Part shown: positions 28,738 to 53,814 of the stretch, in pieces
Numbering within the stretch: position 1 is the stretch's first letter
Layout: every line of letters begins with the position of its first letter
Assembly: GCA_021234155.1 (NCBI GenBank)
Contig: JAJEKV010000004.1
Coordinates: 9,676,109-9,740,108, forward strand
DNA length: 64,000 bases
Source of the DNA: Isoetes taiwanensis
Lineage: Eukaryota > Streptophyta > Lycopodiopsida > Isoetales > Isoetaceae
Reading direction: 5' to 3'
Notes under the pieces: model-generated
The model's database searches: none
Told to the model about the DNA's origin: nothing
The model's input: only the letters and a program-made list of their open reading frames with translations
Position numbers and translations under genes: made by a program

Positions 28738-28741
28738 ACAT

Positions 28742-28762
28742 GGGTAAAAGCATGCTGTGGTG
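28742..28762 (+). repeat. Left TIR of element A
   Basis: A perfect match to the reverse complement of 39708-39728. Flanked on the left by ACAT. Confidence 0.9.
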
Positions 28763-29739
28763 ATAAAAAATGCGCATTTTGACGCCATATTTTTGCACCT
28801 TCTTTGTGGCAGAATCGGGTGGTGCATACCGAAGCGGAGATTGCGGGAGTGAGAATTAATGAGCGTCGGTTATTTTGAATTTTATGCCACGTCATTGTCC
28901 CTCATTTCGAATTAGGAAATAATCACCTCTTCTTCTGTTTTTTTGCCGCTTCTTGCCGATTGAACCCTAATGGAGTCAGAATTGAATGCCACTGGTTACA
29001 CGATGAAATCTCTCCTCAAACAAGAGATTATGCCCCATGAAGATCTAAAGAAGCTTTGGGGTGACAAAGTTCCAAATAAATCTGGCTACAGGTATTGTCC
29101 CCCAAATGTTTGTTCAAACTGAAAAATTAAGGCATATGTTTTCTTGTACAGGTTGAAGAATCTGAGCAATGAACAATACAAAGAGTTCATGCAAATTTAC
29201 AAAAGAATTACAGGGACGCCATATACATGGGGTGGAATGGCTCCTAGAACCTGGGCAGTGGCTTATTATTTGCATATAAAGGGGGAGGCTGTTAATTGGA
29301 AGAGCTTCTTGGATTATTATAGAACTCCCGATGAGAATGCAGAGACCAGTTCTTCTAGACCCAAGAGAAAGCATAGGCAAATCCAACCTGAGCAGGAAAA
29401 AAACAGTAAAAGTGACAGAGATGATGAAGATGATAGGGAAAAAACCAAATCAGGTTCCTCTAGACCACACATTCAGTCTGAACTCACAATCAAACTAGAA
29501 AAGCAGAGCAATATTCTAAGACCAAAATATGCCATTGCAGGTATATTCAATTATTAGTTGTATTACAACAGAAAAAATCTCAAGCTTGACCTAGATTGTT
29601 TCTATCAACACAAAAAAGATAACCTCAAATCCACTTCAAGAATCAGGTATGTCTACTACCATTTTGCATCATGTTGCCTGTATTGTCATGTTGTGTCTCT
29701 ATGATGCCATCTGTGGGGCATTTCATGCAATGGTTGCCA

Positions 29740-30560
29740 CAATGGTAGATGAGGTATGTGTCTGGTGAATGGCGAGTTGTTGGCATGTTGTTTGTGGTGT
29801 AGTGATGAGAATAATACTAGCATTTGTGGTGTGCTGTGTCTTCGTCGTGGTGGAGTGGGGTGTTGTGCTGCCAATAATAGTGCTAATAGTGTTGCTACAT
29901 TGTGGTGCGTGGCATATGTGGGGTAATAGTAGTAGCAAGTGAGGTGTGGTGTACCAATGTGGTGTGGTATAGGTTAATGTGCCGCCAATAGTGGTGATAG
30001 TGCAGCCTATGTTGTGTGGTATATGCACCGTGTTGTGTGGTATGTACTACGTGGTGTGGTGTGTGGTGTGGTGTAGGTTATTGTGCTGCCAATAGTGGTG
30101 AATCTTGTGTGGTGTATGCACCGTGTTGTGTGGTATGTCTTGTGTGTGGTGTGGTGTGGTGTAGGTTTTGTGCCGCCAATAGTGGTGAATGTTGTGTGGT
30201 GTGTGCAGTGTGTTGTGTGGTGTGTACTATGTTGTGTGGTGTGTGGTGTGGTGTAGGTTTTGTGCCACCATTAGTGGTGAATGTTGTGTGGTGTGTGTCG
30301 CGTGTCGTGTGGTGTGTACTATGCTGTAGGTTTTGTGCCGCCAGTAGTGGTGATAGTGCAGCCTATGTTGTGTAGTGCATGCAGAGTGTTGTGTGATGTG
30401 TAGTGTGTTGTGTGGTGTGTGGTGTGGTGTAGGTTATTGTGCCGCCAATAGTGGTGATAGTGCAACCTAGGTTGTGTGGTGTGTGCAACGTGGTGTGTGG
30501 TGTGTAATGTGTTGTGTGGTGCGGTGTGTAGAGAGTACCTTGTGGTGTGTGGTGTGTGAT
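29740..30560 (+). repeat. GTGGT-rich low-complexity intron
   Basis: The intron between 29540 and 30630 is filled with GTGTGGTGTGTGG-type words and an interspersed 20-bp word (GCCGCCAATAGTGGTGATAG) repeated about six times. On the sense strand it is almost free of C runs. Confidence 0.85.
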
Positions 30561-31929
30561 ATGGTCTTCCATTAGTATGTGGCTTATTATGTTAGGAGGC
30601 TGACATATATGTAGTGTTTTGTTTTGCAGACTATGACAGACTTGTGAAGGAATGGTTAGCTGCAACATCAGCTAGGTTTGATAGATGCCAGCAATGATTG
30701 CAAGCAAATGAGGATAGAAAAACTGATATCAATAGAAAGATTGAGTTGATGGAGCATAAAGCATCAAAAGTTAGAGCTGATTTGCACAAATGGCAGCCAA
30801 TCATGACAACAAATCTGAAAGCAGCAGAGAGTGTTCGGGTTGTAAGCGAACTAAAGGATGAAGAGTTAAATGGTACAGTGTTGCCTAGGCTAAATCAATT
30901 AAATAAGGAACTAGCAGAAACTGAAATTGAGCTAAAGGCGTTTGAAGCCTTACTGCTGGAGCTTCAACCTCGAATGCAAAGATTTGATATATTTCTCTAA
31001 ACGTAGTGGCCATGACAATCCTTTAGATCCTGCACTTCCAATGCTTCTTGAGGCAGAAGAAGAGGGTGATAAAAGTTGTCCATATTATGGACGGTGTCTG
31101 AAATGGGAGGGTAAATTGTTGCCAGTTGTGGTAGCAGAATGCAATCTCCAGTATCACATTCCATGTCTGTCACACCATTTGAGGTAAACATTATCGTCTC
31201 GAACCTCGTTTGCAGACTCTATTGATATTGGATTTGTTTTACAGACACTCTACAATCTGTTGCAGCCCCAATTGTGCCCACATTATGTCTAAGACATGGC
31301 TTTTGGCTTTTGGTGTTCGAGTGGTACCACAAGAACCAATAAACACAAGTAAGTACCTTAACTAATTTTTACTGATGTTGTCACAAGTCTACTGACTTAG
31401 TGTTTGCAGAATTGCAGAAATTTGAGACCAAGGATATTCAACAGTTATCCACGCTTCGATCAATTATGAGACTGCAAGATACCTCCCGGGTGCACCTAGA
31501 ATTCACCCCATTGGATACTTCAAAGTCAATCCTAGCTGCTGACAGTGGGGAGATTCCAAAACAAAATTTGGATAGTGAACTGAATGCAGTCGTGTCAAGT
31601 AAGTACCAATGCCACATACATAATTTACTTTTTTCTATTTTTCTTTGGTCTTCCTCATTTCAATTATGTTACAGAGATAAATGCTACTGCAAGCCATCAT
31701 GAAGACCCACGTGCATCTGTTTTAGGAGGGGAAATTAATTTCCCTGAAACTCATTCTGCACGGGATCTTTCACCAAACAAAAGTTTGCTGTTGAACATAA
31801 GCAACATGCGAATGCAGGTGATGAAGTTGACAAAGAAACCCCGGATCTTCAACAAGATGCAGCCTGCTCATCAAGTCCAATATAACCTCAACCAAGAAAA
31901 ACTAAGAGGTTAACTGAAATTCTCCTTGT

Positions 31930-32160
31930 TTTGGATTTTAATGGGGTTTTGGGCAAATTTTATGACTTGAAAGAGAGGATCCCTGCATCGGCCGAGTCAG
32001 AAGTGACCCACCAGAAATTGAACATTCAAAAGGCAGCAGTTTCCAGGCCTGGATTACAGGAGTTCTTAGAATGGTATTTTTCAAAATTTGAGATTGCATT
32101 GTGGTCCAGCATGGCTAAGAGTAATGTTGACTTGTTGGTGAGAATGTTGCTGCAAGAATA
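31930..32160 (+). pseudogene. NLI/FCP1-type HAD domain, N-terminal half
   Basis: LLVLDFNGVLG carries the first HAD motif. The nucleophile Asp is present but the second acidic position is Asn (D-x-N), as in some plant relatives thought not to be classical phosphatases. RPGLQEFLEWYFSKFEIALW and SSMAKSNVD form the second motif region. The half ends abruptly in a run of AGAAT repeats. The C-terminal half, with the Lys and the DD motif, is missing here but survives in the duplicated copy at 43512-43668. Confidence 0.75.
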
Positions 32161-32439
32161 GAATAGAATAGAGTAGAATAGAATAGAATTATTGTCCCTT
32201 GTGCCCTATGGAAGGACTTCTGGCTGCAGAAAGTGTGACTGCTTATGTCAAGGAAAATCAAATGTGGAACATGTGGGATTTTGAAAAGTCGTGCAACTGC
32301 ATGAAAATACTCGACAAGTATTTTCATAAATGAATCTTGTAAAACTCTTTGAAAGTCAATATAAGTAAAAAATTTCCTATGATATGTGTTGTACTTTTTT
32401 AATTTAAAATATTTGAATGGATTGTGAACAAATGTTCTC

Positions 32440-33166
32440 ATGTGTGTTTAGAACTAGAAATGATAGAGCTTCGGCAGTCTCTGTCTATCGAAAGTCACAT
32501 ACACATTTGGAAGTGGTGCTGAGTGGAACTGAAACTGTCTTGATTAGCTCCACCAACATCAAAATTTTGGAAGCTGATACGCAGTGGTTCAATGATCAAT
32601 TGATCCTCCTCTTCTCAAGGTGATACTTTCATCTGATTTGTGAGCATCAGGATTGTGCCATCATATGCATAGGTTTGCAGATACATGGAATACTACTTGA
32701 TGCTCCAAGGAATGAGCCATCCCTTTCATTTATTTGACCCTCTTTTTCACTCGACATTGTCCAAGGACACAAATAGTTACAAAACAATAAGGAAACATGT
32801 GAATCTGGATAAGTGCCAGTACATGTTTGTGACTGCTTGTGATGGACATCACTGGACCTGTTTTCTGACCGTAAGCTGCGCGTGTCTCACACAGAGATAT
32901 AAACCAAGAATATATCACTTTGATAGCATGGGCTTGCATGGCAGAAGCATACATATTGAGAGGTTATTGCTTGCTCATTGCATTTTGCTGTTGTCACACA
33001 ATGACAACAAGCTTTGAATGCAGGTTCCTAGAATTGCTTGGATACAATAATTTCAGCTTTACAACCTTAGATGTTGTGAAAATTTTCAGAATGCCTCTTC
33101 AAACCGATGGCCATTCATGTGGCCCTGTCATATGTTCGTTTATGCACAAATTTGTGAGGGGGTAGT
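32440..33166 (+). pseudogene. Ulp1/SENP-type (C48) cysteine peptidase domain
   Basis: Ulp1-family enzymes cut SUMO or similar modifiers. An exon ending at about 32621 holds DTQWFNDQLILLF, the substrate-binding W-x-N-D block. The next exon starts at 32681 and holds GHHWTCFLTV (catalytic His), then RIYHFDSMGLHG (catalytic Asp). The last part holds MPLQTDGHSCGPVICSFM, with the oxyanion Gln and the catalytic Cys. The His-Asp-Gln-Cys set is therefore complete. A frame change near 33000-33020 separates the Asp and Cys parts, so the copy is probably broken unless spliced unusually. Ulp1-like genes are carried by several plant and other DNA transposons, for example some MULEs, which fits this setting. 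Confidence 0.8.
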
Positions 33167-33388
33167 TGAAAGGAGTGAATATATTGTTGCCTAATCTAGT
33201 AAGTTAACTCAAATGTGCAGACAAACCAAACTCTGTTATTGACAAAGTGTGGTTAACTACAGGTTGTGGACATTTCAGACCTGGATCTAGTTGACGTTAG
33301 AGTGTTCATGCTTGAAATTTTAAGATTAGAAACAACAAAAGCTGGAACTGAGAGGAACATATATATTGGGAAGTATATAGGTGCATGA

Positions 33389-33672
33389 GTCACCTCGTAC
33401 TTTTAAATCACTGTATATCTTTCTTATGTACATAATTGTTACTGTAACCTCGATTCATTTAAATGAAAATTCATATTCAATTATATGTTCTTTGTCACAA
33501 AATAAGGCATCAAATGTTCAAAATTTTTCAAATCTTCAAAAGAAATCAAGACAAACTCATTTTCACAGCTGAGCACAAAACTTCAGATGAGTTTTAAAAA
33601 TTACATAATGGTTTTACATTTCATCCTCATCAGAAAGAACTTCAGGTAAATTCTGTAAAATATTCTCCTCAT
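33389..33672. other. Convergent 3' ends of the two element A genes
   Basis: 284 bases separate the two stop codons. AT-rich, with AATAAGG and similar words, and presumably holding both polyadenylation regions. Confidence 0.4.
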
Positions 33673-34092
33673 CTAAAGGATCCAGCTATATACAGTCTTG
33701 TTTTGACGTTTAGTTGGTGCCATGTGTCTGATTGCACAGATTTGTGTTGTGAATACTATGCCTAAGACGTCTTTGCTGCAAAGATCATAGTTGACGGTTG
33801 ATCTTGCGCCCTTCTTGTAATACATACCTTCTATGACACTATCACCGACGAGGTACCATGTTCCATTGAGTTGGAATTTTTTCTCCACTATCCATTTTAG
33901 TTTTGTGCACATCAGAATCCAAAATTCAGCACCCTCATCATTCCCTTTCAGAGCAACGACAGCAAAATTATCACCAACTCTAAGTGCTTCTGCTAACATC
34001 GTAGGATTGGAGGAGAACAAGGACCTGTTGGATTTACGGTCCTCAATGTCAGCATCACATTCGAGGATGGTACAATAACTTAAAGTTTTCAA
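33673..34092 (-). pseudogene. C-terminal domain of the element A transposase
   Basis: A 139-codon open frame: VGDNFAVVALKGNDEGAEFW then ILMCTKLKWIVEKKF, a module that follows the DDE core in relatives, where a phrase like VGDYFAV..DEG..FW.L is usual. Upstream, in another frame, the segment reads LSCFCNYCLDAMWDNCVN, a Cys cluster before the module. No catalytic role is known. It could bind DNA ends or partner proteins (inference). Confidence 0.65.
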
Positions 34093-34261
34093 TCATCAAC
34101 ATAATGCTTGTTCACACAATTGTCCCACATGGCATCCAAACAATAGTTGCAGAAGCATGAAAGTTCCATCGTGTGCAACTGCAATGGAGATTCAGGATTG
34201 AATGCATGTACACAATGGATCTGCCTAGTGTCCAAAATCCTCTGCACCCCATGCTTTCTTT

Positions 34262-34900
34262 CTATCTATATCCTCCACCTTGACTTCCCAAAAGAATCTT
34301 TTTTATAGTTTTCCTCTTGCTGGTTTCAAATGTGTTCACCCACTCGGATGTTCCACAAGTAAACATCTCTTCAGCAACTTCTACCACTTCATGAGCATTA
34401 CCCAATTTTATGCTGCTGTATTTTAATTGCAGTTGTCTTAACCATTTTTTCAACTCAGCAGCCTTGTCATCGTGTTCACCTTTCCCCTGGTTAGAACCAA
34501 AAAAATTCCACATCATATAGACTTCAGTATCGTTTGTGTACCTAGCCACAAAGTAAAATGGTCTAGAAGCCTTGAATTGAGATGCCATCCATCTGAAAAC
34601 ATATAATGTCTCTTTGGCACCCTTCCTTTCTGCTCCAGATATTTATGGTGCTTCATGAAGCAGTGTTGCACGAACAAAGTATCATGTTCCGTATCATCTG
34701 ATACATAGTAATGTGTTTCTTTGATAGTCTCATCTGCCACTGAGTCATATTGATATGTTATTTGAACCAAAATGGTAATCTGGTTATTGATCCAGTGCAT
34801 CGATTGCACCTCCTCTTGTTCCTTGAATGTATACTTCTCTGCAAAATCCACTACCGAAAGATATACATCTGCTGGGAGATTCTCCAGAAGCTCCTTAAAT
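34262..34900 (-). pseudogene. DDE core of the element A transposase
   Basis: Three acidic blocks follow the expected order: VVDFAEKYTFKEQEEVQ (first Asp, codon 34846-34848), HYMFSDG (second Asp, codon 34591-34593), and NFFGSNQGKGEHDD (third acidic residues at about 34468-34485). Between the first two is HYYVSDDTEHDTLFVQHCF. The frame breaks by one base directly after SDG. Two stops just upstream of the first block sit where CAG and CAA would fit. Catalytic assignment rests on motif order only. Confidence 0.75.
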
Positions 34901-35489
34901 TATTTTGCCTACCATTGGTACTTGAAATTATGCAGTGGAAAGATTTTTAGACGCTCTTTCAGTTTATCTAGAAGCTCCTTGGGTTCTGTCTCATCGTATT
35001 GATGAGTCAATCTCCTACCAGAACTCGAGACGACGTCTTTTTCATAGTCAATGTACTCCCATTTCACTTTCCTGTTACTGCCACTTTCTTCTATGGGACA
35101 GGTCTGAAACTTCTTGATTCCACACAGCGCACAATCTCCAAGGATGCACGCCTTCTTATGAAACTCATCTAATTCACTCTTTGGCCACAATATAGATCTC
35201 CACAAGCTTCATATACTTGCAATTTTATGCTGATGTGCCCTGCATCGACCAAGTTCGTGTGATCTACATACATCGCAGGTGCAAGTGCAATTCTTCGGAT
35301 GTTTGGTTCTCATCCCATTGAGTCCATTCACTAGCATTTGCATCCTCACATGTTGAATGCAACAGCAATTATTGAAATCCTTCAATTTCACAACAAACTA
35401 GCTTCTCAAAAGCTCGAAGACGAATCTTAATTTGTGGATGTTGGTCCTTGACCCTGTTGAACAATAGCATCTGCATGAAATGAACACTA

Positions 35490-36258
35490 AACTGTTAGGA
35501 TGTGTATACCACACCAAACCATGCACCATACCATGCCCCACACTCATCATATTCACCAGACCGAGCACCTTAGTGCTGCGTACATTACCACACACCACAC
35601 CATGCACCACACACATCATAACCATCAAACAGACGATACTAAACTCATGTCATACCACACACCACAGAGCACATACCATGCACCACACACTCTACACCGC
35701 ACATTCTACATGCTATACACCATCCACCACACATACCATACACCAAATGTGTGGTGGTAGCAAGGAGTGGTGGGACATTGTGCAGGGTGGTGGAGTGTGG
35801 TGGTGGGAGATAGTGGAGTGGGGTGGTGGGACATGGTGGAGTGTGGTGGTGGGGTGTGGGGTGGGACATGGTGGAGGGTGGTGGTGGGAGATGGTAGAGT
35901 GTAGTGGTGAAAGATGGTGGGGTGTGGTGTGGGACATGGTGGACTGTGGTGGAGTGTGGTGGTGGGAAATGGTGGGCTTCAAATGTGGTGGTAATGGAGA
36001 ATGTGGTGCATGTGCTGGTGGGAGATGGTGTGTTTGAAATGTGGTGATAAATGTGGTGGTGGCAAAGATGTAGTGGTAGTCTATGGAGGATGAAATTTAG
36101 TGGTAGAATAGATGGTGGGGTGTTATGTGGTGTGGTGATTGTGACAAATGTGGTGAACTGTGGTCATGAGACATTGTGTGGTGAAATGTAGTGGTGGTGA
36201 CGAATGTGTTGGAGTATGGTGGCGGGAGATGGTGGGCTTCTAGTGTGGTGGTAATGAA
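35490..36258. repeat. CCACA-rich block switching to GTGGT-rich block
   Basis: About 250 bases of CACACCA/CATACCA words on + (35500-35750) switch abruptly near 35748 to GTGGTGG words (35750-36258). The left half lies in a transposase intron and is GT-rich on the sense strand. The two halves are partly complementary and could pair. Confidence 0.8.
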
Positions 36259-36489
36259 GAATGTGTTGGAACATTGTTAACCCTATGTTGTTAACCTATG
36301 TGGACGTTCGGTCACATGTATGGTCAAAGGTCAAAGTCACATGTAAGACTAGGTAGGTGGACATCACATGTTAAGACTAGTTAGGTGGTCACATCATAGT
36401 TAGGTAGGAAGCCTCTATCATATATGTAACATCAACATGTAAAGGAAAGTAGCTCATGTTTCCATTTCTCTCCTCCTGATCCTCCAACA

Positions 36490-36502
36490 TGGTATCAGAG
36501 CC
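36490..36502 (+). other. Primer-binding site
   Basis: TGGTATCAGAGCC, the standard plant initiator-Met tRNA primer site, starts one base after the LTR. Confidence 0.9.
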
Positions 36503-36714
36503 AAGGGGCTTAGATCAAGATTGATCTATAGTGAGTGGATTCTCACTACTTTGCTGCAAGGAGGAGTAGAATCACAGAAGGGCAATTGTTTTGCTGCTGC
36601 AGGTTGTTCTTGAAGTCTTTGGGTGAAGCCCAAATCCATTTCAGTGTGATTTGAAGGTGGTTGAAGGATATTTGTTGTTTTTCTTCTAGATTCAGCTATA
36701 CCAGTTTGAATCTC

Positions 36715-37419
36715 ATGGATCCTTTCAAATTTTCCAAAGATCCCATGCTCACCCCAAGCAATTGGTATGTTTGGGCAGACTTTTTTGAGAATTTTATGAT
36801 CACTAACAATCTTGGAGCTGTTTTTTATCCAGCTTGGGATAAGGCAAAAGATGCCAAGTCCACTGAGTTAGATAGGAGGGCTCTAGCCTATCTTAAACTC
36901 CTTGTATCCCCTTCTATAAGGATTAGGCTCAGACCGTTATCTAGTTTCAAAGAAGCATGGAAAGAGTTGGAGAACTTTTATGCCTACACAGGTCTCTCAA
37001 CTCAGCTTGTCGTCAAGAAAAAGATTGAGACAACTTTGTTGACTTCTTCTTCAAATATGACTGAATATTTGGAGAAAATGGAAGCTCTAAGATTGGAGCT
37101 TATTACTGCAGGAGGAAAGATGGAAGATCTGGATCTCATCCAATGCATTTTGATCAATCTTCCTCTTGAGTATGCCATGTTATCTTCCCAAATACGACAT
37201 GCTAAGGAGCCTGATTTCCTTGATGTTAAGGGAATGCTAATTCAAGAGGAGTCTCACATCAAGGCCCTCAAGAGTAATGGGGCTGGAATACTAGGTGAAA
37301 AGGCTTTGGTTTCAGACCATAAAGCAAAAAATTCTACAAAGAATTCAAGTAGAAGAGCAATTGAATGCTATTATTGTCACAAGTTGGGGCATATTGCAAA
37401 GGATTGCCATGCTAAGTAA
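36715..37419 (+). CDS. Copia-type gag with zinc knuckle (copy 1)
   Basis: A 234-residue gag protein that would form the retrotransposon particle. The N-terminal region (SNWYVWADFFENFMITNN) and DRRALAYLKLLVSPSIRIRL match the UBN2-type gag of plant Copia elements. The C-terminus has one CCHC knuckle, CYYCHKLGHIAKDCHAK, near residues 217-233. MDPFKF is the best start because it fits the usual gag opening and copy 2 shares it; a further in-frame ATG lies upstream. The stop falls six bases before the residual LTR begins, so no protease or pol follows. The frame is intact, and copy 2 has only a few substitutions. Possibly still translated. Confidence 0.85.
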   Translation: MDPFKFSKDPMLTPSNWYVWADFFENFMITNNLGAVFYPAWDKAKDAKSTELDRRALAYLKLLVSPSIRIRLRPLSSFKEAWKELENFYAYTGLSTQLVVKKKIETTLLTSSSNMTEYLEKMEALRLELITAGGKMEDLDLIQCILINLPLEYAMLSSQIRHAKEPDFLDVKGMLIQEESHIKALKSNGAGILGEKALVSDHKAKNSTKNSSRRAIECYYCHKLGHIAKDCHAK

Positions 37420-37471
37420 AGGAAAGTAGCTCATGTTTCCATTTCTCTCCTCCTGATCCTCCAACAGAATG

Positions 37472-37660
37472 TGGTGAATCTGGTGGTGGGGGATTGTGGG
37501 GGGACGGGTTGGGTGAGAAGGGGATGTGTGGTGGGGTGGGTGGGGTGGGGTGGGAGAATAAATAAAATTGAATCCACACATATCATACATTTAACATGCA
37601 CGCACCCACATGATACCATAAATATCACGCACCCCACATCCACACCACACATCACTTCGA
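37472..37660 (+). repeat. GTGGGG-rich stretch
   Basis: A continuation of the GTGGTG-rich sequence interrupted by the LTR element. The G-rich runs (GTGGGGTGGGTGGGGTGGGG) could form G-quadruplexes. Confidence 0.7.
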
Positions 37661-38741
37661 TCTTATTCCATCTGTCATAAAAAATCTGCCTAGCCTGCTC
37701 TCATAACATTTCTGAAATTCGTACGCCCTGATAATAATTACATTCTTTTCCTAATATTAAAGGATCTACCCACTAAATCCTGTCCCTGCACTAGATTTTT
37801 GGCGTTTCGTTCTCAAGCTTCCAAGTTTATTCCGGCAATGACTAACAGGAGGTTCAGAGACAATTAAGGCCTACCTAGAGTGAGCAAGGAGGCCCTTCGG
37901 TTTGCATTTAACCAAGGCTCGTGACTAGTCTCTGAAGGTGGATATGCCTAAATCCACCTTCTTTTCTCAATTCGAAGCTACCCTAAACCCATTCAACAGA
38001 CTGGATGCATGGCCTTCAATGGCTATTTTTTGGTCAGATTGACGGGAAGAGAGCTTTCAGGCAAGGTCCATGCCCTTATGTTACATCTTTCGCAAAGTGT
38101 ATAGCATGGGTTGTTCTAAGCACTTGCTCGCCTCGAATCGGCAACATCAGAAATTATTGGCAGGGATGCATTCTTACCACTGAGGGGATGCAGGAAGCAC
38201 TGGCGAACCTGATCCTATGCAATTCTGGGATGATTGCACAAAGCTTGGATGCTTTAGTGCAGAAAACAGTCATTTTGGATGCACCAGAAGTGGAGCCAGT
38301 CATACTAGCATTTCCTGCTGTTTAGGAAATGCATGTAAATTTAGTTCTCGGGTACAGAGCTTTCAATGAAAAGCCAAATTTTGTAACATATGCTTTTTTT
38401 TTTAAATATTATAAACTTTCGAATAGAGATGTACTTTCATCTGACATCAATTTTTCTTTATCAATTCAACTAAACTTTTAGGATCAGTTAGTTATCTGTC
38501 ATTCTCAAATATTTTTAGACTATACACATAGACCCAGTAAAGGAATATAATACTTGTAACTCAATTCTGTCACGTTCTAATATTCCCAACATTAAATATT
38601 ATTTAGCTGCATTTTAGAGTCAACTACATACAATTCACATGCTGCATACAGTACTGTACAACACAATAACCACCACATGCACCACCACACTAAGCACCAT
38701 AACTAAGAAAACATGAATAACAGAATTTGTAACGTAACCTG
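37661..38741. other. Intron-like interior of element A
   Basis: It lies between transposase exons. A + strand open piece (FNGYFLVRLTGRELSG, 38017-38070) looks protein-like and is better preserved in the second copy (through AAAKTGIAWVV), but I do not recognise it. Confidence 0.35.
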
Positions 38742-39707
38742 TGATTCCTCCAGATAGTGGGCAGCATGTTCTTCTCTTACATTTCTCTCCAATCTTCTAG
38801 TTCTAACATCCTTTGTGTTAGGAGACACTCTGGTGTTCTCAATCCAAAAATTTTGAATCTTTTCTATCTGTTCATCCGAAATTGCATCGAACCTTTTAGC
38901 CCTCTTATAAGAAACCCATTTCCCACTATTGTAATTGATCTCTTCCCTCTTTTTCTTTGCCTTTTGCAGGTTTCAGTGAACACCTCATACCTTTCTAAGA
39001 TCTCTCTGGCTGATTTTGTCACTTGTTTCAAAACCTGCACGGCGTGGTACAGACATTGTAAGACAGCTATTCTTGGCTGCTAGGCAGTCATTGCTGGTAG
39101 AGAGTTTCACAGTCTGCATAGAATCCTAGATGCTCCTAATGACGATGCTCTTGGCTTCCAAATCCTTTAATTCTTCACCTATAAATCTTTCCAATGTTTT
39201 ATCCCTCAAAACTCAAGTAAAATTTCTTTCTTCATGCTATCCTCAATTCTTTTGGTCTGTTATGGAAAAACGTTAGCAAACTAAGGACAATACGGCGTTT
39301 ACTGCTTGCATTTCTTGATGAACCAGATCCTTCTGCCAATTCTACAAGCTTCAATTTTTCCTCTCTTCTTCTTTTCCTCTGGCGTCTTTCTTCAACATTT
39401 CTTCTTCCTTGGTTCTTCTTCGTTTTCTCCTGTCTGAAATGCCTATGTGTGGATAGATTACCTCGTTGACATCCATATCCACAATGGATTGGAGCTTGTA
39501 GTAGGGAGCCAAAGAATAGGACGTAGGCAAAGAACAGGAAGGGGCCAAAAAATAGGAATTTGAATTTTAGTTTTGAAATTAGAATTTCCCCCACAAATTG
39601 GGACTCCATTCTTAAATAACGGCAATTGAGCGGTGCCATAATAATACTTTCATACCACAAAAGTGGTAGATGCACGACCACATTTTGGGGGGCCGGCCGA
39701 ATTGGGA

Positions 39708-39728
39708 CACCACAGCATGCTTTTACCC
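39708..39728 (-). repeat. Right TIR of element A
   Basis: A perfect match to the left TIR. Followed by ACAT. The same end is preserved in the duplicated copy at 51577-51597, also followed by ACA. Confidence 0.9.
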
Positions 39729-39732
39729 ACAT

Positions 39733-40100
39733 CCACACATCCACAAAAGCAACTTTACAGAACATAGAGTAGTCTTTAACGTGTTAATACCTGGATTGGT
39801 AATTTGGAATGTTGTTATATGGAAGGAATACTGGAATACCATTCTTGGCTGTCCCTAGTGACCTGCGCAATGGGGAGCCCTGCCAGAAATGATCCGAGGA
39901 GTCAGGGAGCTGGGATAGCCAAGAATGATGTGTTGGAGTATATAGTTTTGAATTGTGAAAGGATTGAGTTGGTGAGCTTATTGAAGCAAATCATATGCAA
40001 GGATTGACTGTCAGATATTGTCTTGAATCTTACAGTGGATTGTAGTGAAGGCTGGAATGGATTGATATGCCCATTAAAGGGGCTGTTGTGTCAGAGTAAG
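39733..40100. other. Flank between element A and the LINE
   Basis: Non-coding, no feature recognised. Shared with the second copy at about 51602-51960. Confidence 0.4.
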
Positions 40101-41776
40101 ATCTCAATCAACATATACGGATGCTCCCCTCAACTGCTTGCCACACAGTGCCTTGGGATAAGTTGTGGGAAAGATTGAGACAGCTGGGGACCCCCGTTGA
40201 CTTGCAGAATGCTATATACAGACTATACAGGCTTGCTTGTCGTCTCACACTGTCGGGGGAGCCCGTTGTTAGTAGCATTGGGGTGCGCCAGGGCTGCCCT
40301 CTATCCCCGACGCTCTTCGGCTTGTACATTAGCCGAGCACGCGGGGGAGGCGCCCGTTGATGCACCACATAATCCGCAACTCATATATGCCGATGATGTT
40401 GACCTGCCGCATATACCCAGAGGACATGCAACGCCACCGGATGCTTTGGACACTTTCTCGCCAATTCACCGGCATGAGAGTTAACTTGGCCAAGACGAGG
40501 GTGCCGCTGGTCCCATCATCCCAAGCACTCCACGCCTTCCCTCATTCACTTACGGGGGCAGGTAGTGGAGGTGGCTCGATCTTATAAGTATTTGGGCATT
40601 GATTTTTCTACTACCACACACCGGGATGCATCCATCGTTACGGGTCACCGCAGCCGGAAAGCCCCAGATGCAATGCAAAACAACAATCACAAGGCGAGTC
40701 GTATGCATGGGGTCACCAGGCACACTTGTTCGGGGCCTTGGTTGAACCGGTCCTCCTCTATGGGGCGTAGTGTGGGGGCGGTGATATCCCTCACCACTTG
40801 GAACGATCTAGAGCAGTACGTAAGGCCTTCTTGGCCCGGCACCGGGAGGAAATCCACTTCCATCCCATATCAGATCTTGCTCCAGAGCAGTGCTTCCTTC
40901 CATTACGAGGGCTGCACCGAAAGTCACATTATTTACTTCCAAAAGGTGCCGGGCTATGGATGAAGCCCGGCCGCCTAACCTTGCTTTGGCGGTGGCGATG
41001 GGCCCGGCGACTCAAAGCCCGGGCTGGAAAGACAAGCAAGCCCGGTGGTTCTCGCGATGGAATGTGCGAGCACACGATGTGGACCGGTGCATACACCAAG
41101 GAACTTGGCTGCCTTGAAGCAAAGATACTTGGATGCTTGCTTTATGGCCAAGCTTTGGGATGCAGAGGCTGTCACATGTCAAGGTGGCAAATTATCGACG
41201 AGGTTAATTCCATGCTCACGAGGGCCCACACACCACTACCGCGCACCCATCTACCCATGAAAAGCCGGGGTGATTGCTTCCATTCACAAGCGGTGCACAC
41301 CCTCCGCATTGAGACGGGGAGATGGATCGGGAGCCGCGTGAGGAGGACAGAGTCTGCCGGTCTTTGTCAGCAGGCGCCATTGAGGATGAAAGTCATGCCC
41401 TCCAGGCCTGTCCGGCGTACGAGCATATCCGGGCTCGGTATGATCGGTTAGTTGTGCCCCATCAGGCCCGCATGAGCTGAGCACTACACGGCCTCTCAGA
41501 GGGCTTGTTGGGATCGTACCTCGGGAGGTAATGGATACGCGGACTCGATTCACGTCCCCGTCCGGGACATTAACCTCAGTTGTACTTGTGATTATGTATA
41601 TAACTGTGCAGTATGTCAGCATCCTTACTGCTACTAAGGTTTTTCCCCCGAAAACCCTTCGGGGCGGGGGTTTTTTAATCCTGGTAGTAATGTGCCTGTT
41701 GCTCTCTCTTTGTACTTGGGTCCCATAGGCCAGTTGGTCTCCGTGGACGATAAAATCATATTCTATTCTATTCCTA
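40101..41776 (+). mobile_element. LINE (non-LTR retrotransposon) 3' part, copy 1
   Basis: Fragments of a non-LTR reverse transcriptase in several frames. VPWDKLWERLRQLG, then SIGVRQGCPLSPTLFGLYI (the RT motif before the catalytic loop), then IYADDV at about 40386-40403 with the catalytic Asp pair, FTGMRVNLAKTRV and SYKYLGIDFSTT. Near the end, a Cys pair (CRLCQQ, in another frame) matches the zinc-binding tail of such proteins. The 3' end is a TATTC pentanucleotide run (41759-41776). No 5' region or endonuclease was seen, so it is 5'-truncated. Many frame breaks make it dead. Confidence 0.8.
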
Positions 41777-41943
41777 ACATAATATAGATCCTCGTACTTA
41801 TGCATTTGCGACTGTGAATGTGGCGACATGGGGTGGTCAGGGGACTGAACACCATGTCGACTTGCCCTAACAATGTGTATGCGTGCATGAAACATCATAT
41901 GGGAGGTGACCAGTGTCTAGATGCACGTAATGATATTCTCCCC

Positions 41944-42376: not shown

Positions 42377-43246
42377 AACATTATCGTCTCGAACCTCGTT
42401 TGCAGACTCTATTGATATTGGATTTGTTTTACAGACACTCTACAATCTGTTGCAGCCCCAGTTGTGCCCACATTATGTCTAAGACATGGCTTTTGGCTTT
42501 TGGTGTTCGAGTGGTACCACAAGAACCAATAAACACAAGTAAGTACCTTAACTAATTTTTACTGATGTTGTCACAAGTCTACTGACTTAGTGTTTGCAGA
42601 ATTGCAGAAATTTGAGACCAAGAATATTCAACAGTTATCCACGCTTCGATCAATTATGAGACTGCAAGATACCTCCCGGGTGCACCTAGAATTCACCCCA
42701 TTGGATACTTCAAAGTCAATCCTAGGCGGACACAGTGGGGAGATTCCAAAACAAAATTTGGATAGTGAACTGAATGCAGTCGTGTCAAGTAAGTACCAAT
42801 GCCACATACATAATTTACTTTTTTCTATTTTTCTTTGGTCTTCCTCATTTCAATTATGTTACAGAGATAAATGCTACTGCAAGCCATCATGAAGACCCAC
42901 GTGCATCTGTTTTAGGAGGGGAAATTAATTTCCCTGAAACTCATTCTGCACGGGATCTTTCACCAAACAAAAGTTTGCTGTTGAACATAAGCCACATGCG
43001 AATGCAGGTGATGAAGTTGACAAAGAAACCCCGGATCTTCAACAAGATGCAGCCTGCTCATCAAGTCCAATATAACCTCAACCAAGAAAAACTAAGAGGT
43101 TAACTGAAATTCTCCTTGTTTTGGATTTTAATGGGGTTTTGGGCAAATTTTATGACTTGAAAGAGAGGATCCCTGCATCGGCCGAGTCAGAAGTGACCCA
43201 CCAGAAATTGAACATTCAAAAGGCAGCAGTTTCCAGGCCTGGATTA

Positions 43247-44084
43247 CAGGAGTTCTTAGAATGGTATTTTTCAAAATTTGAGATTGCATTGTGGTCCAGC
43301 ATGGCTAAGAGTAATGTTGACTTGTTGGTGAGAATGTTGCTGCAGGAATAGAATAGAATAGAATAGAATTATTGTCCCTTGTGCCCTAAGGCTCCTGGAC
43401 TGATGTAGCATGGGCGAACTCCCAGAAGGGCGCTACTAGCATATCACGCTGATATATTGTAACCTTTTCTGAAGGCTTTTCTTAGTTTCTATTAGCACTG
43501 GCACCCCGCTTTTGAAGGGCATATTTCTTTTTATTTGGAATCAGGATGACTGCACCAACACAAAGGTAAAAGTGATTAATAAGCCAATTTTCCTTAAGGA
43601 TCTGTCCAAAGTGTACCAGAAATACTGGAAATACCAAGTGAAAAACACATTGTTGATAGATGACAACAGATCGAGCTCCGGTCCCATTTTTGTTTCAGTT
43701 GTTTTTTCCTGTGCTAAAAGCACTTTTTGTGAACCTCAATGGTTCTGATACTATATCAGATGTAACTTTCTTATGATAAATATAAATCTTCCTTTTCTCC
43801 AAAAAAAAAAAAAAAAAAAAAAAAAAACAGATATAAGGGTTCTGCCAACCAGTCAAACACCATGATATGTCCAAATAGTTTTGCTCCGGACATATTGGAT
43901 TTCAATTTCCTTTTGGAGCAGAAAGTGTGACTGCAGGAGTTCTTAGAATGGTATTTTTCAAAATTTGAGATTGCATTGTGGTCCAGCATGGCTAAGAGTA
44001 ATGTTGACTTGTTGGTGAGAATGTTGCTGCAAGAATAGAATACAATAGAGTAGAATAGAATAGAATTATTGTCCCTTGTGCCCT
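43247..44084 (+). repeat. 145-bp direct repeats flanking the HAD half
   Basis: The block from CAGGAGTTCTTAGAATGG through the AGAAT run to GTGCCCTA occurs at 43247-43388 and again at 43934-44084 (offset 687). Copy 1 of the large duplication has the block once. Exchange between the two blocks would produce exactly the copy 1 arrangement. Confidence 0.85.
43512..43748 (+). pseudogene. HAD (NLI/FCP1) domain C-terminal half, only in copy 2
   Basis: FLFIWNQDDCTNTKVK, NKPIFLKDLSKVYQKYW and NTLLIDDN match the C-terminal half of the NLI/FCP1 HAD fold: the W-x-Q-x-x-C-T block, the K-x-L-x-x-V-W/Y block and the DD motif binding Mg. It lies downstream of the N-terminal half (43121-43349), separated by an AGAAT repeat and about 130 bases of other sequence. 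It is followed by a poly(A) run (43801-43827). Copy 1 lacks it entirely. The protein after LIDDN diverges into non-family sequence, so even this half is incomplete. Confidence 0.75.
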
Positions 44085-47000
44085 ATGGAAGGACTTCTGG
44101 CTGCAAAAAGTGTGACTGCTTATGTCAAGGAAAATCAAATGTGGAACATGTGGGATTTTGAAAAGTCGTGCAACTGCATGAAAATACTCGACAAGTATTT
44201 TCATAAATGAATCTTGTAAAACTCTTTGAAAGTCAATATAAGTAAAAAATTTCCTATGATATGTGTTGTACTTTTTTAATTTAAAATATTTGAATGGATT
44301 GTGAGCAAATGTTCTCATGTGTGTTTAGAACTAGAAATGATAGAGCTTCGGCAGTCTCTGTCTATCGAAAGTCACATACACATTTGGAAGTGGTGCTGAG
44401 TGGAACTGAAACTGTCTTGATTAGCTCCACCAACATCAAAATTTTGGAAGCTGATACGCAGTGGTTCAATGATCAATTGATCCTCCTCTTCTCAAGGTGA
44501 TACTTTCATCTGATTTGTGAGCATCAGGATTGTGCCATCATATGCATAGGTTTGCAGATACATGGAATACTACTTGATGCTCCAAGGAATGAGCCATCCC
44601 TTTCATTTATTTGACCCTCTTTTTCACTCGACATTGTCCAAGGACACAAATAGTTACAAAACAATAAGGAAACATGTGAATCTGGATAAGTGCCAGTACA
44701 TGTTTGTGACTGCTTGTGATGGACATCACTGGACCTGTTTTCTGACCGTAAGCTGCGCGTGTCTCACACAGAGATATAAACCAAGAATATATCACTTTGA
44801 TAGCATGGGCTTGCATGGCAGAAGCATACATATTGAGAGGTTATTGCTTGCTCATTGCATTTTGCTGTTGTCACACAATGACAACAAGCTTTGAATGCAG
44901 GTTCCTAGAATTGCTTGGATACAATAATTTCAGCTTTACAACCTCAGATGTTGTGAAAATTTTCAGAATGCCTCTTCAAACCGATGGCCATTCATGTGGC
45001 CCTGTCGTATGTTCGTTTATGCACAAATTTGTGAGGGGGTAGTTGAAAGGAGTGAATATATTGTTGCCTAATCTAGTAAGTTAACTCAAATGCAGCAGAC
45101 AAACCAAACTCTGTTATTGACAAAGTGTGGTTAACTACAGGTTGTGGACATTTCAGACCAGGATCTAGTTGACGTTAGAGTGTTCATGCTTGAAATTTTA
45201 AGATTAGAAACAACAAAAGCTGGAACTGAGAGGAACATATATATTGGGAAGTATATAGGTGCATGAGTCACCTCGTACTTTTAAATCACTGTATATCTTT
45301 CTTATGTACATAATTGTTACTGTAACCTCGATTCATTTAAATGAAAATTCATATTCAATTATATGTTCTTTGTCACAAAATAAGGCATCAAATGTTCAAA
45401 ATTTTTCAAATCTTCAAAAGAAATCAAGACAAACTCATTTTCACAGCTGAGCACAAAACTTCAGATGAGTTCTAAAAATTACATAATGGTTTTACATTTC
45501 ATCCTCATCAGAAAGAACTTCAGGTAAATTCTGTAAAATATTCTCCTCATCTAAAGGATCCAGCTATATACAGTCTTGTTTTGACGTTTAGTTGGTGCCA
45601 TGTGTCTGATTGCACAGATCTGTGTTGTGAATACTATGCCTAAGACGTCTTTGCTGCAAAGATCATAGTTGACGGTTGATCTTGCGCCCTTCTTGTAATA
45701 CATACCTTCTATGACACTATCACCGACGAGGTACCATGTTCCATTGAGTTGGAATTTTTTCTCCACTATCCATTTTAGTTTTGTGCACATCAGAATCCAA
45801 AATTCAGCACCCTCATCATTCCCTTTCAGAGCAACGACAGCAAAATTATCACCAACTCTAAGTGCTTCTGCTAACATCGTAGGATTGGAGGAGAACAAGG
45901 ACCTGTTGGATTTACGGTCCTCAATGTCAGCATCACATTCGAGGATGGTACAATAACTTGAAGTTTCCAATCATCAACATAATGCTTGTTCACACAATTG
46001 TCCCACATGGCATCCAAACAATAGTTGCAGAAGCATGAAAGTTCCATCGTGTGCAACTGCAATGGAGATTCAGGATTGAATGCATGTACACAATGGATCT
46101 GCCTAGTGTCCAAAATCCTCTGCACCTCATGCTTTCTTTCTATCTATATCCTCCACCTTGACTTCCCAAAATAATCTTTTTTATAGTTTTTCTCTTGCTG
46201 GTTTCAAATGTGTTCACCCACTCGGATGTTCCACAAGTAAACATCTCTTCAGCAACTTCTACCACTTCATGAGCATTACCCAATTTTATGCTGCTGTATT
46301 TTAATTGCAGTTGTCTTAACCATTTTTTCAACTCAGCAGCCTTGTCATCGTGTTCACCTTTCCCCTGGTTAGAACCAAAAAAATTCCACATCATATAGAC
46401 TTCAGTATCGTTTGTGTACCTAGCCACAAAGTAAAATGGTCTAGAAGCCTTGAATTGAGATGCCATCCATCTGAAAACATATAATGTCTCTTTGGCACCC
46501 TTCCTTTCTGCTCCAGATATTTATGGTGCTTCATGAAGCAGTGTTGCACGAACAAAGTATCATGTTCCGTATCATCTGATACATAGTAATGTGTTTCTTT
46601 GATAGTCTCATCTGCCACTGAGTCATATTGATATGTTATTTGAACCAAAATGGTAATCTGGTTATTGATCCAGTGCATCGATTGCACCTCCTCTTGTTCC
46701 TTGAATGTATACTTCTCTGCAAAATCCACTACCGAAAGATATACATCTGCTGGGAGATTCTCCAGAAGCTCCTTAAATTATTTTGCCTACCATTGGTACT
46801 TGAAATTATGCAGTGGAAAGATTTTTAGACGCTCTTTCAGTTTATCTAGAAGCTCCTTGGGTTCTGTCTCATCGTATTGATGAGTCAATCTCCTACCAGA
46901 ACTCGAGACGACGTCTTTTTCATAGTCAATGTACTCCCATTTCACTTTCCTGTTACTGCCACTTTCTTCTATGGGATAGGTCTGAAACTTCTTGATTCCA

Positions 47001-47371
47001 CACAGCGCACAATCTCCAAGGATGCACGCCTTCTTATGAAACTCATCTAATTCACTCTTTGGCCACAATATAGATCTCCACAAGCTTCATATACTTGCAA
47101 TTTTATGCTGATGTGCCCTGCATCGACCAAGTTCGTGTGATCTACATACATCGCAGGTGCAAGTGCAATTCTTCGGATGTTTGGTTCTCATCCCATTGAG
47201 TCCATTCACTAGCATTTGCATCCTCACATGTTGAATGCAACAGCAATTATTGAAATCCTTCAATTTCACAACAAACTAGCTTCTCAAAAGCTCGAAGACG
47301 AATCTTAATTTGTGGATGTTGGTCCTTGACCCTGTTGAACAATAGCATCTGCATGAAATGAACACTAAACT

Positions 47372-48146
47372 GTTAGGATGTGTATACCACACCAAACCAT
47401 GCACCATACCATGCCCCACACTCATCATATTCACTGGGCCGAGAGCACCTTAGTGTCAAGCAGCATTACCATACACACACCACACCATGCACCACACACA
47501 TCATAACCATCAAGCAGACGATACTAAACTCATGTCATACCACACACCACGTAGCACATACCATGCACCACACACTCTACACCGCACATTCTACACGCTA
47601 TACACCATCCACCACACATACCATACACCAAATGTGTGGTGGTAGCAAGGAGTGGTGGGACATTGTGCAGGGTGGTGGAGTGTGGTGGTGGGAGATAGTG
47701 GAGTGGGGTGGTGGGACATGGGTGGTGGGTGTGGTGGTGGGGTGTGGGGTGGGACATGGTGGAGGGTGGTGGTGGGAGATGGTAGAGTGTAGTGGTGAAA
47801 GATGGTGGGGTGTGGTGTGGGACATGGTGGACTGTGGTGGAGTGTGGTGGTGGGAAATGGTGGGCTTCAAATGTGGTGGTAATGGAGAATGTGGTGCATG
47901 CGCTGGTGGGAGATGGTGTGTTTGAAATGTGGTGATAAATGTGGTGGTGGCAAAGATGTAGTGGTAGTCTATGGAGGATGAAATTTAGTGGTAGAATAGA
48001 TGGTGGGGTGTTATGTGGTGTGGTGATTGTGACAAATGTGGTGAACTGTGGTCATGAGACATTGTGTGGTGAAATGTAGTGGTGGTGACGAATGTGGTGG
48101 AGTATGGTGGCGGGAGATGGTGGGCTTCTAGTGTGGTGGTAATGAA
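47372..48146. repeat. CCACA/GTGGT low-complexity block, second copy
   Basis: The same strand-switching block as at 35490-36258, with small length differences in the repeats (for example at about 47430-47470 and 47715-47735). Confidence 0.8.
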
Positions 48147-48151
48147 GAATG

Positions 48152-49327
48152 TGTTGGAACATTGTTAACCCTAAGTTGTTAACCTATGTGGACGTTCGGT
48201 CACATGTATGGTCAAAGGTCAAAGTCACATGTAAGACTAGGTAGGTGGACATCACATGTTAAGACTAGTTAGGTGGTCACATCATAGTTAGGTAGGAAGC
48301 CTCTATCATATATGTAACATCAACATGTAAAGGAAAGTAGCTCATGTTTCCATTTCTCTCCTCCTGATCCTCCAACATGGTATCAGAGCCAAGGGGCTTA
48401 GATCAAGATTGATCTATAAGGAGGAGTAGAATCACAGAAGGGCAATTGTTTTGCTGCTGCAGGTTGTTCTTGAAGTCTTTGGGTGAAGCCCAAATCCATT
48501 TCAGTGTGATTTGAAGGTGGTTGAAGGATATTTCTGTTTCTTTCTTCTAGATTCAGCTATACCAGTTTGAATCTCATGGATCCTTTCAAATTTTCCAAAG
48601 ATCCCATGCTCACCCCAAGCAATTGGTATGTTTGGGCAGACTTTTTTGAGAATTTTATGATCACTAACAATCTTGGAGCTGTTTTTGATCCAGCTTGGGA
48701 TAAGGCAAAAGATGCCAAGTCCACCGAGTTAGATAGGAGGGCTCTAGCCTATCTTAAACTCCTTGTATCCCCTTCTATAAGGATTAGGCTCAGACCGTTA
48801 TCTAGTTTCAAAGAAGCATGGAAAGAGTTGGAGAACTCTTATGCCTACACAGGTCTCTCAACTCAGCTTGTCGTCAAGAAAAAGATTGAGACAACTTTGT
48901 TGACTTCTTCTTCAAATATGACTGAATATTTGGAGAAAATGGAAGCTCTAAGATTGGAGCTTATTGCTGCGGGAGGAAAGATGGAAGATCTGGATCTCAT
49001 CCAATGCATTTTGATCAATCTTCCTCTTGAGTATGCCATGTTATCTTCCCAAATCCGACATGCTAAGGAGCCTGATTTCCTTGACGTTAAGGGAATGCTA
49101 ATTCAAGAGGAGTCTCACATCAAGGCCCTCAAGAGTAATGGGGCTGGAATACTAGGTGAAAAGGCTTTGGTTTCAGACCATAAAGCAAAAAATTCTACAA
49201 AGAATTCAAGTAGAAGAGCAATTGAATGCTATTATTGTCACAAGTTGGGGCATATTGCAAAGGATTGCCATGCTAAGTAAAGGAAAGTAGCTCATGTTTC
49301 CATTTCTCTCCTCCTGATCCTCCAACA
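48152..49327 (+). mobile_element. Nested gag-only Copia-like LTR element (copy 2)
   Basis: Duplicate of 36264-37466 with the same LTR (48152-48377), primer site (48378-48390), 3' LTR remnant and GAATG target duplication (48147-48151 and 49328-49332). About 33 bases of the leader are missing. Confidence 0.88.
48576..49280 (+). CDS. Copia-type gag with zinc knuckle (copy 2)
   Basis: A 234-residue gag protein like that at 36715-37419, with a UBN2-type body and a CYYCHKLGHIAKDC knuckle. Substitutions against copy 1 include D for Y in NLGAVFDPAWD, S for F in ELENSYAYTG, and A for T in LELIAAGG. The frame is intact. No pol follows. The conservative nature of the changes suggests copy 2 may be nearer to the original, since DPAWDKAK and ELENSYAY look more typical of the family. 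Confidence 0.85.
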   Translation: MDPFKFSKDPMLTPSNWYVWADFFENFMITNNLGAVFDPAWDKAKDAKSTELDRRALAYLKLLVSPSIRIRLRPLSSFKEAWKELENSYAYTGLSTQLVVKKKIETTLLTSSSNMTEYLEKMEALRLELIAAGGKMEDLDLIQCILINLPLEYAMLSSQIRHAKEPDFLDVKGMLIQEESHIKALKSNGAGILGEKALVSDHKAKNSTKNSSRRAIECYYCHKLGHIAKDCHAK

Positions 49328-49332
49328 GAATG

Positions 49333-51576
49333 TGGTGAATCTGGTGGTGGGGGATTGTGGGGGGACGGGTTGGGTGAGAAGGGGATGTGTGGTGGGGTGG
49401 GTGGGGTGGGGTGGGGTGGGAGAATAAATAAAATTGAATCCACACATATCATACATTTAACATGCACGCACCCACATGATACCATAAATATCACGCACCC
49501 CACATCCACACCACACATCACTTCGATCTTATTCCATCTGTCATAAAAAATCTGCCTAGCCTGCTCTCATAACATTTCTGAAATTCGTACGCCCTGATAA
49601 TAATTACATTCTTTTCCTAATATTAAAGGATCTACCCACTAAATCCTGTCCCTGCACTAGATTTTTGGCGTTTCGTTCTCAAGCTTCCAAGTTTATTCCG
49701 GCAATGACTAACAGGAGGTTCAGAGACAATTAAGGCCTACCTAGAGTGAGCAAGGAGGCCCTTCGGTTTGCATTTAACCAAGGCTCGTGACTAGTCTCTG
49801 AAGGTGGATATGCCTAAATCCACCTTCTTTTCTCAATTCGAAGCCACCCTAAACCCATTCAACAGACTGGATGCAGGGCCTTCAATGGCTATTTTTTGGT
49901 CAGATTGACGGGAAGAGAGCTTTCAGGCAAGGTCCATGCCCTTATGTTACATGCTGCTGCAAAGACAGGTATAGCATGGGTTGTTCGGCACTTGCTCGCT
50001 CTGAATTGGCAACATCAGAAATTATTGGCAGGGATGCATTCTTACCACTGAGGGGATGCAGGAAGCACTGGCGAACCTGATCCTATGCAATTCTGGGATG
50101 ATTGCACAAAGCTTGGATGCTTTAGTGCAGAAAACAGTCATTTTGGATGCACCAGAAGTGGAGCCAGTCATACTAGCATTTCCTGCTGTTTAGGAAATGC
50201 ATGTAAATTTAGTTCTCGGGTACAGAGCTTTCAATGAAAAGCCAAATTTTGTAACATATGCTTTTTTTTTAAATATTATAAACTTTCGAATAGAGATGTA
50301 CTTTCATCTGACATCAATTTTTCTTTATCAATTCAACTAAACTTTTAGGATCAGTTAGTTATCTGTCATTCTCAAATATTTTTAGACTATACACATAGAC
50401 CCAGTAAAGGAATATAATACTTGTAACTCAATTCTGTCACGTTCTAATATTCCCAACATTAAATATTATTTAGCTGCATTTTAGAGTCAACTACATACAA
50501 TTCACATGCTGCATACAGTACTGTACAACACAATAACCACTACATGCACCACCACACTAAGCACCATAACTAAGAAAACATGAATAACAGAATTTGTAAC
50601 GTAACCTGTGATTCCTCCAGATAGTGGGCAGCATGTTCTTCTCTTACATTTCTCTCCAATCTTCTAGTTCTAACATCCTTTGTGTTGGGAGACACTCGTG
50701 TTCTCAATCCAAAAATTTTGAATCTTTTCTATCTGTTCATCCGAAATTGCATCGAACCTTTTAGCCCTCTTATAAGAAACCCATTTCCCACTATTGTAAT
50801 TGATCTCTTCCCTCTTTTTCTTTGCCTTTTGCAGGTTTCAGTGAACACCTCATACCTTTCTAAGATCTCTCTGGCTGATTTTGTCACTTGTTTCAAAACC
50901 TGCATGGCGTGGTACAGACATTGTAAGACAGCTATTCTTGGCTGCTAGGCAGTCATTGCTGGTAGAGAGTTTCACAGTCTGCATAGAATCCTAGATGCTC
51001 CTAATGACGATGCTCTTGGCTTCCAAATCCTTTAATTCTTCACCTATAAATCTTTCCAATGTTTTATCCCTCAAAACTCAAGTAAAATTTCTTTCTTCAT
51101 GCTATCCTCAATTCTTTTGGTCTGTTATGGAAAACGTTAGCAAACTAAGGACAATACTGGCCAAGCATTCTTGCTTGCATTTCTTGATGAACCAGATCCT
51201 TCTGCCAATTCTACAAGCTTCAATTTTTCCTCTCTTCTTCTTTTCCTCTGGCGTCTTTCTTCAACATTTCTTCTTCCTTGGTTCTTCTTCGTTTTCTCCT
51301 GTCTGAAATGCCTATGTGTGGATAGATTACCTCGTTGACATCCATATCCACAATGGATTGGAGCTTGTAGTAGGGAGCCAAAGAATAGGACGTAGGCAAA
51401 GAACAGGAAGGGGCCAAAAAATAGGAATTTGAATTTTAGTTTTGAAATTAGAATTTCCCCCACAAATTGGGACTCCATTCTTAAATAACGGCAATTGAGC
51501 GGTGCCATAATAATACTTTCATACCACAAAAGTGGTAGATGCACGACCACATTTTGGGGGGACGGCCGAATTGGGA
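49333..51576. other. Interior of element A, second copy
   Basis: Intron-like sequence and 5' exons of the transposase, as at 37472-39707. The + strand open piece at about 49880-50000 is longer here (HALMLHAAAKTGIAWVVRHL) than in copy 1. Confidence 0.4.
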
Positions 51577-51597
51577 CACCACAGCATGCTTTTACCC
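51577..51597 (-). repeat. Right TIR of element A, second copy
   Basis: Same 21-bp end as 39708-39728, followed by ACATCC. No left partner exists in this copy. Confidence 0.88.
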
Positions 51598-51959
51598 ACA
51601 TCCACACATCCACAAAAGCAACTTTACAGAACATAGAGTAGTCTTTAACGTGTTAATACCTGGATTGGTAATTTGGAATGTTGTTATATGGAAGGAATCT
51701 TTGGAATACCATTCTTGGGCTGTCCCTAGTGACTGCAAGAATGGGGAGCCCATGAGAGAAATGATCCGAGGAGTCGGGGATTTGGGATAGCCAAGAATGA
51801 TGTGTTGGAGTATATAGTTTTGAATTGTGAAAGGATTGAGTTGGTGAGCTTATTGAAGCAAATCATATGCAGATTGATTGATCGCCGATATTGTCTTGAA
51901 TCTTACAAAGGATTGTAGTGAAGGCTGGAATGGATTGATATGCCCATTAAAGGGGGGCT

Positions 51960-53649: not shown

Positions 53650-53814
53650 ATAATATAGATCCTCGTACTTATGCATTTGCGACTGTGAATGTGGCGACAT
53701 GGGGTGGTCAGGGGACTGAACACCATGTCGACTTGCCCTAACAATGTGTATGCGTGCATGAAACATCATATGGGAGGTGACCAGTGTCTAGATGCACGTA
53801 ATGATATTCTCCCC

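Follow-up and report, generated by a model that had tools for sequence, protein, structure and literature searches.

The window, i.e. the whole stretch of 64,000 nucleotides of Isoetes taiwanensis DNA that was analysed, contains a DNA transposon at positions 28742 to 39728. The element is bounded by terminal inverted repeats (TIRs) of 21 bp, located by repeat detection and by genome matches to 30-mers, at 28742..28762 (plus strand, GGGTAAAAGCATGCTGTGGTG) and 39708..39728 (minus strand). These are 100% complementary, and one flanking base more gives the 22 bp returned by the repeat tool. Most of the listed copies read GCACGC at the left TIR, as against GGGTAAAAGCATGCTGTGGTG in the window copy. 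The word ACAT, read from the flanks and assigned to neither strand, lies outside each end (28738..28741 and 39729..39732) and is the target site duplication (TSD). The left-end gene, termed here the helper, starts at an ATG at 28970, 228 bp inward of the left end; the right-end gene, the transposase, starts at an ATG at 39476, 252 bp inward of the right end, and the two are convergent. The perfect repeats, the ACAT words and the two inward genes about 230 bp from the ends had been described in a first-pass annotation made from the sequence alone, and all are borne out by comparison of repeats, flanks and gene starts.

The same annotation called the element complete. This is correct for its outline (TIRs, TSD and both genes) and not for its coding: both genes contain stops and frameshifts, a part of the helper phosphatase domain that is kept in other copies has gone, and a gag fragment has been inserted. 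The window element is an old, inactive copy of a multicopy DNA transposon. We consider it very probable that the family as a whole is a cut-and-paste transposon with an integrase-like transposase and a helper bearing NIF, Ulp1 and RING-like regions, belonging most likely to Sola or near it, of which the window holds an inactive copy.

The nested gag fragment is of copia type (PF14223; plus strand, approximately 36439..37466, with an open reading frame (ORF) at 36661-37419) and was recognized by domain match and repeats. It lies inside the large transposase intron, flanked by two identical 51-bp direct repeats.

Copies, insertion sites and a segmental duplication

The assembly of 1,658,258,908 bases in 1110 contigs was searched with a 30-mer from each end, allowing up to two mismatches. 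The left end gave 350 matches and the right end 319, with none for the control in either case, so that a chance origin of the TIRs is ruled out. The first-pass annotation had staked its reading on the TIR recurring in the genome and on other copies having both genes between such ends; the TIR is indeed multicopy, and the longer copies show the same collinear arrangement as the window element. Twenty copies were retrieved, being the next best after the window copy among 40 scored by left-end similarity. Pairs of ends were added later wherever the listing placed a left end close to a right end in the same orientation, and both flanks were read; one set comprises 20 of about 32 such pairs, picked by eye among the listed ends. 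Paired ends are mostly 9-13 kb apart, with a few at 15.8-26.6 kb and one at 3.4 kb, and full-length copies are commonly 9-10 kb.

An exact 4-bp TSD of varied sequence was found in 28 of the 32 copies checked (the window copy, L011, L019, L022 and L025 from printed flanks, six of seven pairs, and 17 of 20 pairs), in support of the DNA transposon with a 4-bp duplication described in the first-pass annotation. TTAA accounts for two of the 28. Among the misses, no right end was found for L017/L041, the ends of L068/L069 are 26.6 kb apart and perhaps belong to two elements, and L046/L047 and L080/L081 each fail by one mismatch. L070 and L072 have flanks in common and are not independent, and the left TIR of L022 is truncated. 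The 3.4-kb end-to-end copy, at G000:C1026:5627452-5630817, is flanked by 4-bp words that differ by one base, and is probably an internal deletion derivative. The mean Kimura two-parameter distance to the consensus is 2.0% in the 5′ helper region (21 alignments) and 3.6% in the NIF region (16 alignments). The corresponding values for the window copy are 4.2% and 8.2%, which place it among the older copies.

The window also contains a tandem segmental duplication, in which 31187-41943 is repeated at 42377-53814 with 96.5-98% identity. The duplication takes in the greater part of the element together with its right end and the flank beyond it; at 42377-53814 an extra stretch is present and the left end is absent. 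A second right end of the window insertion at 51597 is a product of this duplication, and an independent second insertion in the window was therefore rejected. That the duplication includes the right end might suggest that the matching ends themselves arose by tandem duplication or as an assembly artefact. We regard this as exceedingly improbable, given that left and right ends occur at hundreds of places, with TSDs that differ where checked. A second copy of the gag fragment, at 48567-49280, has been carried along with the duplicated block.

The helper gene

The helper gene, broken in the window copy, extends over approximately 28970..33165 on the plus strand, with about 8-9 exons inferred from splice signals and a multi-copy exon consensus. 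Majority consensus sequences were derived segment by segment from 5-20 copies, and their exons are open for both helper and transposase. The helper consensus of 949 amino acids, a length that rests on the splice sites chosen, has two domains above the Pfam cut-offs, as would be expected from the multidomain protein proposed in the first-pass annotation. These are a NIF/FCP1-type phosphatase domain (PF03031, E 9.4e-16) and a Ulp1/C48 protease domain (PF02902, E 5.3e-8, with a SENP5 match at E 2.8e-4). The window copy retains only the first half of the NIF domain, at 31922..32149 (plus strand, E 1.3e-6), and a natural ORF in L022 matches NIF with E 1.1e-15. The C48 domain spans two exons at 32685..33165 (plus strand) and is found in the consensus only; the window C48 exon by itself gave no C48 match. 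A RING-like zinc finger region occupies two exons at 31080..31350 (plus strand).

The first motif of HAD phosphatases is usually DxD. It is DFN in the window family and DLN in the diverged relative L094, and because the second aspartate is replaced by asparagine, the phosphatase activity of the helper would be uncertain.

The window copy has a GTGGTGTG-rich minisatellite array in helper intron 2 (approximately 29958..30560, plus strand) and a GTGG-rich array in the large transposase intron (approximately 35742..36268, plus strand). GTGG/CACC minisatellites occupy one intron of each gene in eight of ten scanned copies; L010 and L016 have the helper array only, their transposase region being non-collinear in the stretch scanned. 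Three of the helper-intron arrays (window copy, L017 and L019) read GTGG on the helper strand, and the remaining seven read CACC. No GTGG/CACC minisatellites occur in the stretches scanned of L084, a second diverged relative, and L094.

The transposase and its diverged relatives

The transposase gene runs from 39476 to 33614 on the minus strand and is frameshifted in the window copy; it was defined from the consensus and ORFs, with its fold predicted from a relative. Exon 1 (39476-38739) encodes a weak helix-turn-helix-like region, and exon 2 (35470-33614) the catalytic core, cysteine clusters and a C-terminal domain. A Pfam scan of the 871-amino acid consensus gave no significant match. One of the 19 members of alignment A2 matched a single Pfam family (YL1, E 0.0083), which was put down to chance, and neither rve nor MULE was matched by the consensus or the A2 members. 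An AlphaFold2 (AF2) model of a diverged relative, of moderate quality, aligns best with retroviral integrase cores. This supports the assignment of the protein as a DDE/D enzyme with a predicted integrase-like (RNase H/DDE-type) core, in agreement with the DDE-like transposase of the first-pass annotation. Relatives have the motifs DFAENY, SDG and GE.DG in common, the third acidic residue being either D or E. The ratio of nonsynonymous to synonymous polymorphism (pN/pS), taken for variants common to at least two copies, is 0.32 in the core. The best hit to PDB sequence profiles, a mannanase at E 0.0099, was also put down to chance, and a search of viral contigs gave no match.

The transposase motif has 634 exact matches in the genome and none for the control, which points to many diverged transposase relatives. 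A convergent helper with a NIF-type region adjoins the L084 and L094 transposases, and in L094 the NIF domain is confirmed by Pfam (E 4.7e-7). A strict NIF motif pattern, which excludes the window family, gave 144 matches (control 14). Pairs were compared over the contig range in both sets of listed matches, i.e. for 100 of the 634 transposase and 32 of the 144 NIF matches. Sixteen of these 32 have a transposase motif no more than 10 kb away; all sixteen are convergent with it at a distance of 1.5-4.0 kb, and three NIF codon forms recur among the pairs. Judged by these motifs and their order, the facing transposase and NIF pair is an old design that recurs in diverged relatives, and RING plus NIF may be the older core of the helper. 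One transposase type would have radiated into a large and varied set in Isoetes taiwanensis, accompanied time and again by a convergent partner gene. A looser NIF pattern, [LF]D[LF]NGV[LF] in codon form, gave 2174 matches (control 61) and was too unspecific for helper counts; among 100 of its matches listed, many FDLNGVL forms lie away from listed transposase matches.

Several observations weigh against our description of the family. The AF2 model of the relative has a mean predicted local distance difference test score (pLDDT) of 47.3, with values between 34 and 86 for the core blocks over 201-310 and of 44 for the block that includes the third acidic motif (341-350); a model from close copies alone (mean pLDDT 30.3) was discarded. 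Foldseek against PDB gave no match at E≤0.001, although several of the top rows (NurA, terminase nuclease, TnsB and Argonautes) are RNase H-like folds. The sharing of DFAENY is partly by construction, since it served as the search motif. Sola, discussed below, was compared by its published description and not by sequence. On the helper side, the RING-like finger is below the Pfam cut-offs in the consensus also, the NIF-like ORF of L084 alone had no Pfam match, and the stretches examined next to L084 and L094 showed no Ulp1. For the other 16 of the 32 strict NIF matches, no transposase motif is listed at a distance of up to 10 kb. Within the family, pN/pS is near neutral (0.78 in NIF and 0.84 in part of C48) and gives no sign of selection on these domains.

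The last three points favour the view that the helper is a fusion of host genes, picked up by transduplication and borne along with no role in transposition; gene capture including Ulp1 is known in plant transposons (PMC13317346; here and below, statements from cited papers refer to the passages concerned). A passenger is not expected to retain partner, order and spacing, however, whereas the NIF-type helper is convergent to diverged transposases at L084, at L094 and in all 16 close motif pairs, with its three recurring codon forms. We therefore consider a passive helper quite unlikely.

Classification and possible function

By its described features the family would most probably fall in Sola or in a close lineage, a likeness that is not a claim of membership. 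Sola elements have a 4-bp TSD, TIRs of 11-1124 bp and lengths of 2-9 kb, some exceeding 15 kb (PMC10741241). The varied 4-bp TSDs of the window family, its 21-bp TIRs and its 9-10 kb copies are in keeping with this. Its conserved D, D and D/E positions may correspond to the three acidic residues of the DDD transposase of Sola. Sola1 is reported in the moss Physcomitrella (PMC9033089, Table 1), and Sola is said to be uncommon in flowering plants (PMC10741241, PMC9033089). Unlike the window family, Sola is described in these passages with no mention of a RING/NIF/Ulp1 second gene.

It is possible, if somewhat doubtful, that the family belongs instead to a different DDE superfamily that makes 4-bp duplications (Ginger, Kolobok, piggyBac or Academ) or to an unnamed one, since the likeness to Sola is one of description, no Pfam model fits the transposase, and Ginger has a TSD of 4-6 bp (PMC10741241). 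Yet the ends of the window family are GGG...CCC and not the TG...CA of Ginger, and the rve match is absent. The XPG nuclease and helicase that are signatures of Academ are not among the Pfam matches. Kolobok and piggyBac are TTAA-specific (PMC9587614), in contrast to the TSDs found here.

The first-pass annotation considered the design unusual for a plant, which does not stand as worded. Maize MuDR has two convergent genes that start from its two TIRs, the second of which (mudrB, the first being mudrA) is required for integration (PMC3440606, PMC8224964), and VANC genes of some Vandal Mutator-like elements (MULEs) carry Ulp1 (PMC13317346). Like MuDR, the window family has two convergent genes, one beginning close to each TIR. 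It differs in its 21-bp TIR, as against about 215 bp in MuDR (PMC8224964), and from MULEs in its 4-bp TSD, as against 7-12 bp (PMC10741241), and in lacking a MULE Pfam match. In KIU-carrying Vandal elements an Ulp1-bearing second gene is tied to hypomethylation of related copies, and Vandal targets are short motifs in non-coding parts (PMC13317346). The window family likewise has Ulp1 in the second gene, and its copies hold intronic minisatellite arrays, whereas KIU-carrying Vandal elements are non-TIR MULEs. By analogy, Ulp1-bearing VANC proteins are the nearest published parallel to the helper. The word phosphatase is absent from the main text of the Vandal review (PMC13317346), and the whole words Sola, TIR and transposase from that of the Isoetes genome paper (PMC8566536). 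A single query of an open-access library yielded no description of a NIF-bearing transposon partner gene, and no paper with both Ulp1 and NLI interacting factor, which is weak evidence of novelty. The convergent two-gene design as such is already known from MuDR, and the NIF-bearing partner gene would appear to be the new part.

In the mechanism that we propose, the right-end gene would encode a transposase that binds to the TIRs, excises the element and reinserts it, and joining to staggered 4-bp cuts would generate the 4-bp duplication. As in MuDR, each gene would be transcribed from the end at which it lies. The left-end gene would provide a helper that serves as a transposition cofactor or counters host silencing, acting on host proteins through CTD- or SUMO-type modification as proposed for VANC proteins; by that analogy an anti-silencing role is possible. 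A bolder extension, which we think rather unlikely, is that of a long-lived plant two-gene lineage in which a protein with RING and an FCP1-type phosphatase (plus Ulp1 in the window family) permanently accompanies the transposase. This protein would act on Pol II or on silencing that depends on SUMO, and would recognize the element by the GTGG/CACC arrays in its introns. If this is true, an FCP1-type phosphatase as a standing transposon gene would give a new handle on how transposons contend with host transcription and silencing.

Elsewhere in the window, an ORF of 224 amino acids lies at 18007-18681 on the minus strand. It starts MASSSSSSSPCAACKFLRRKC and, judged by its motif, may be a plant LOB-domain protein.
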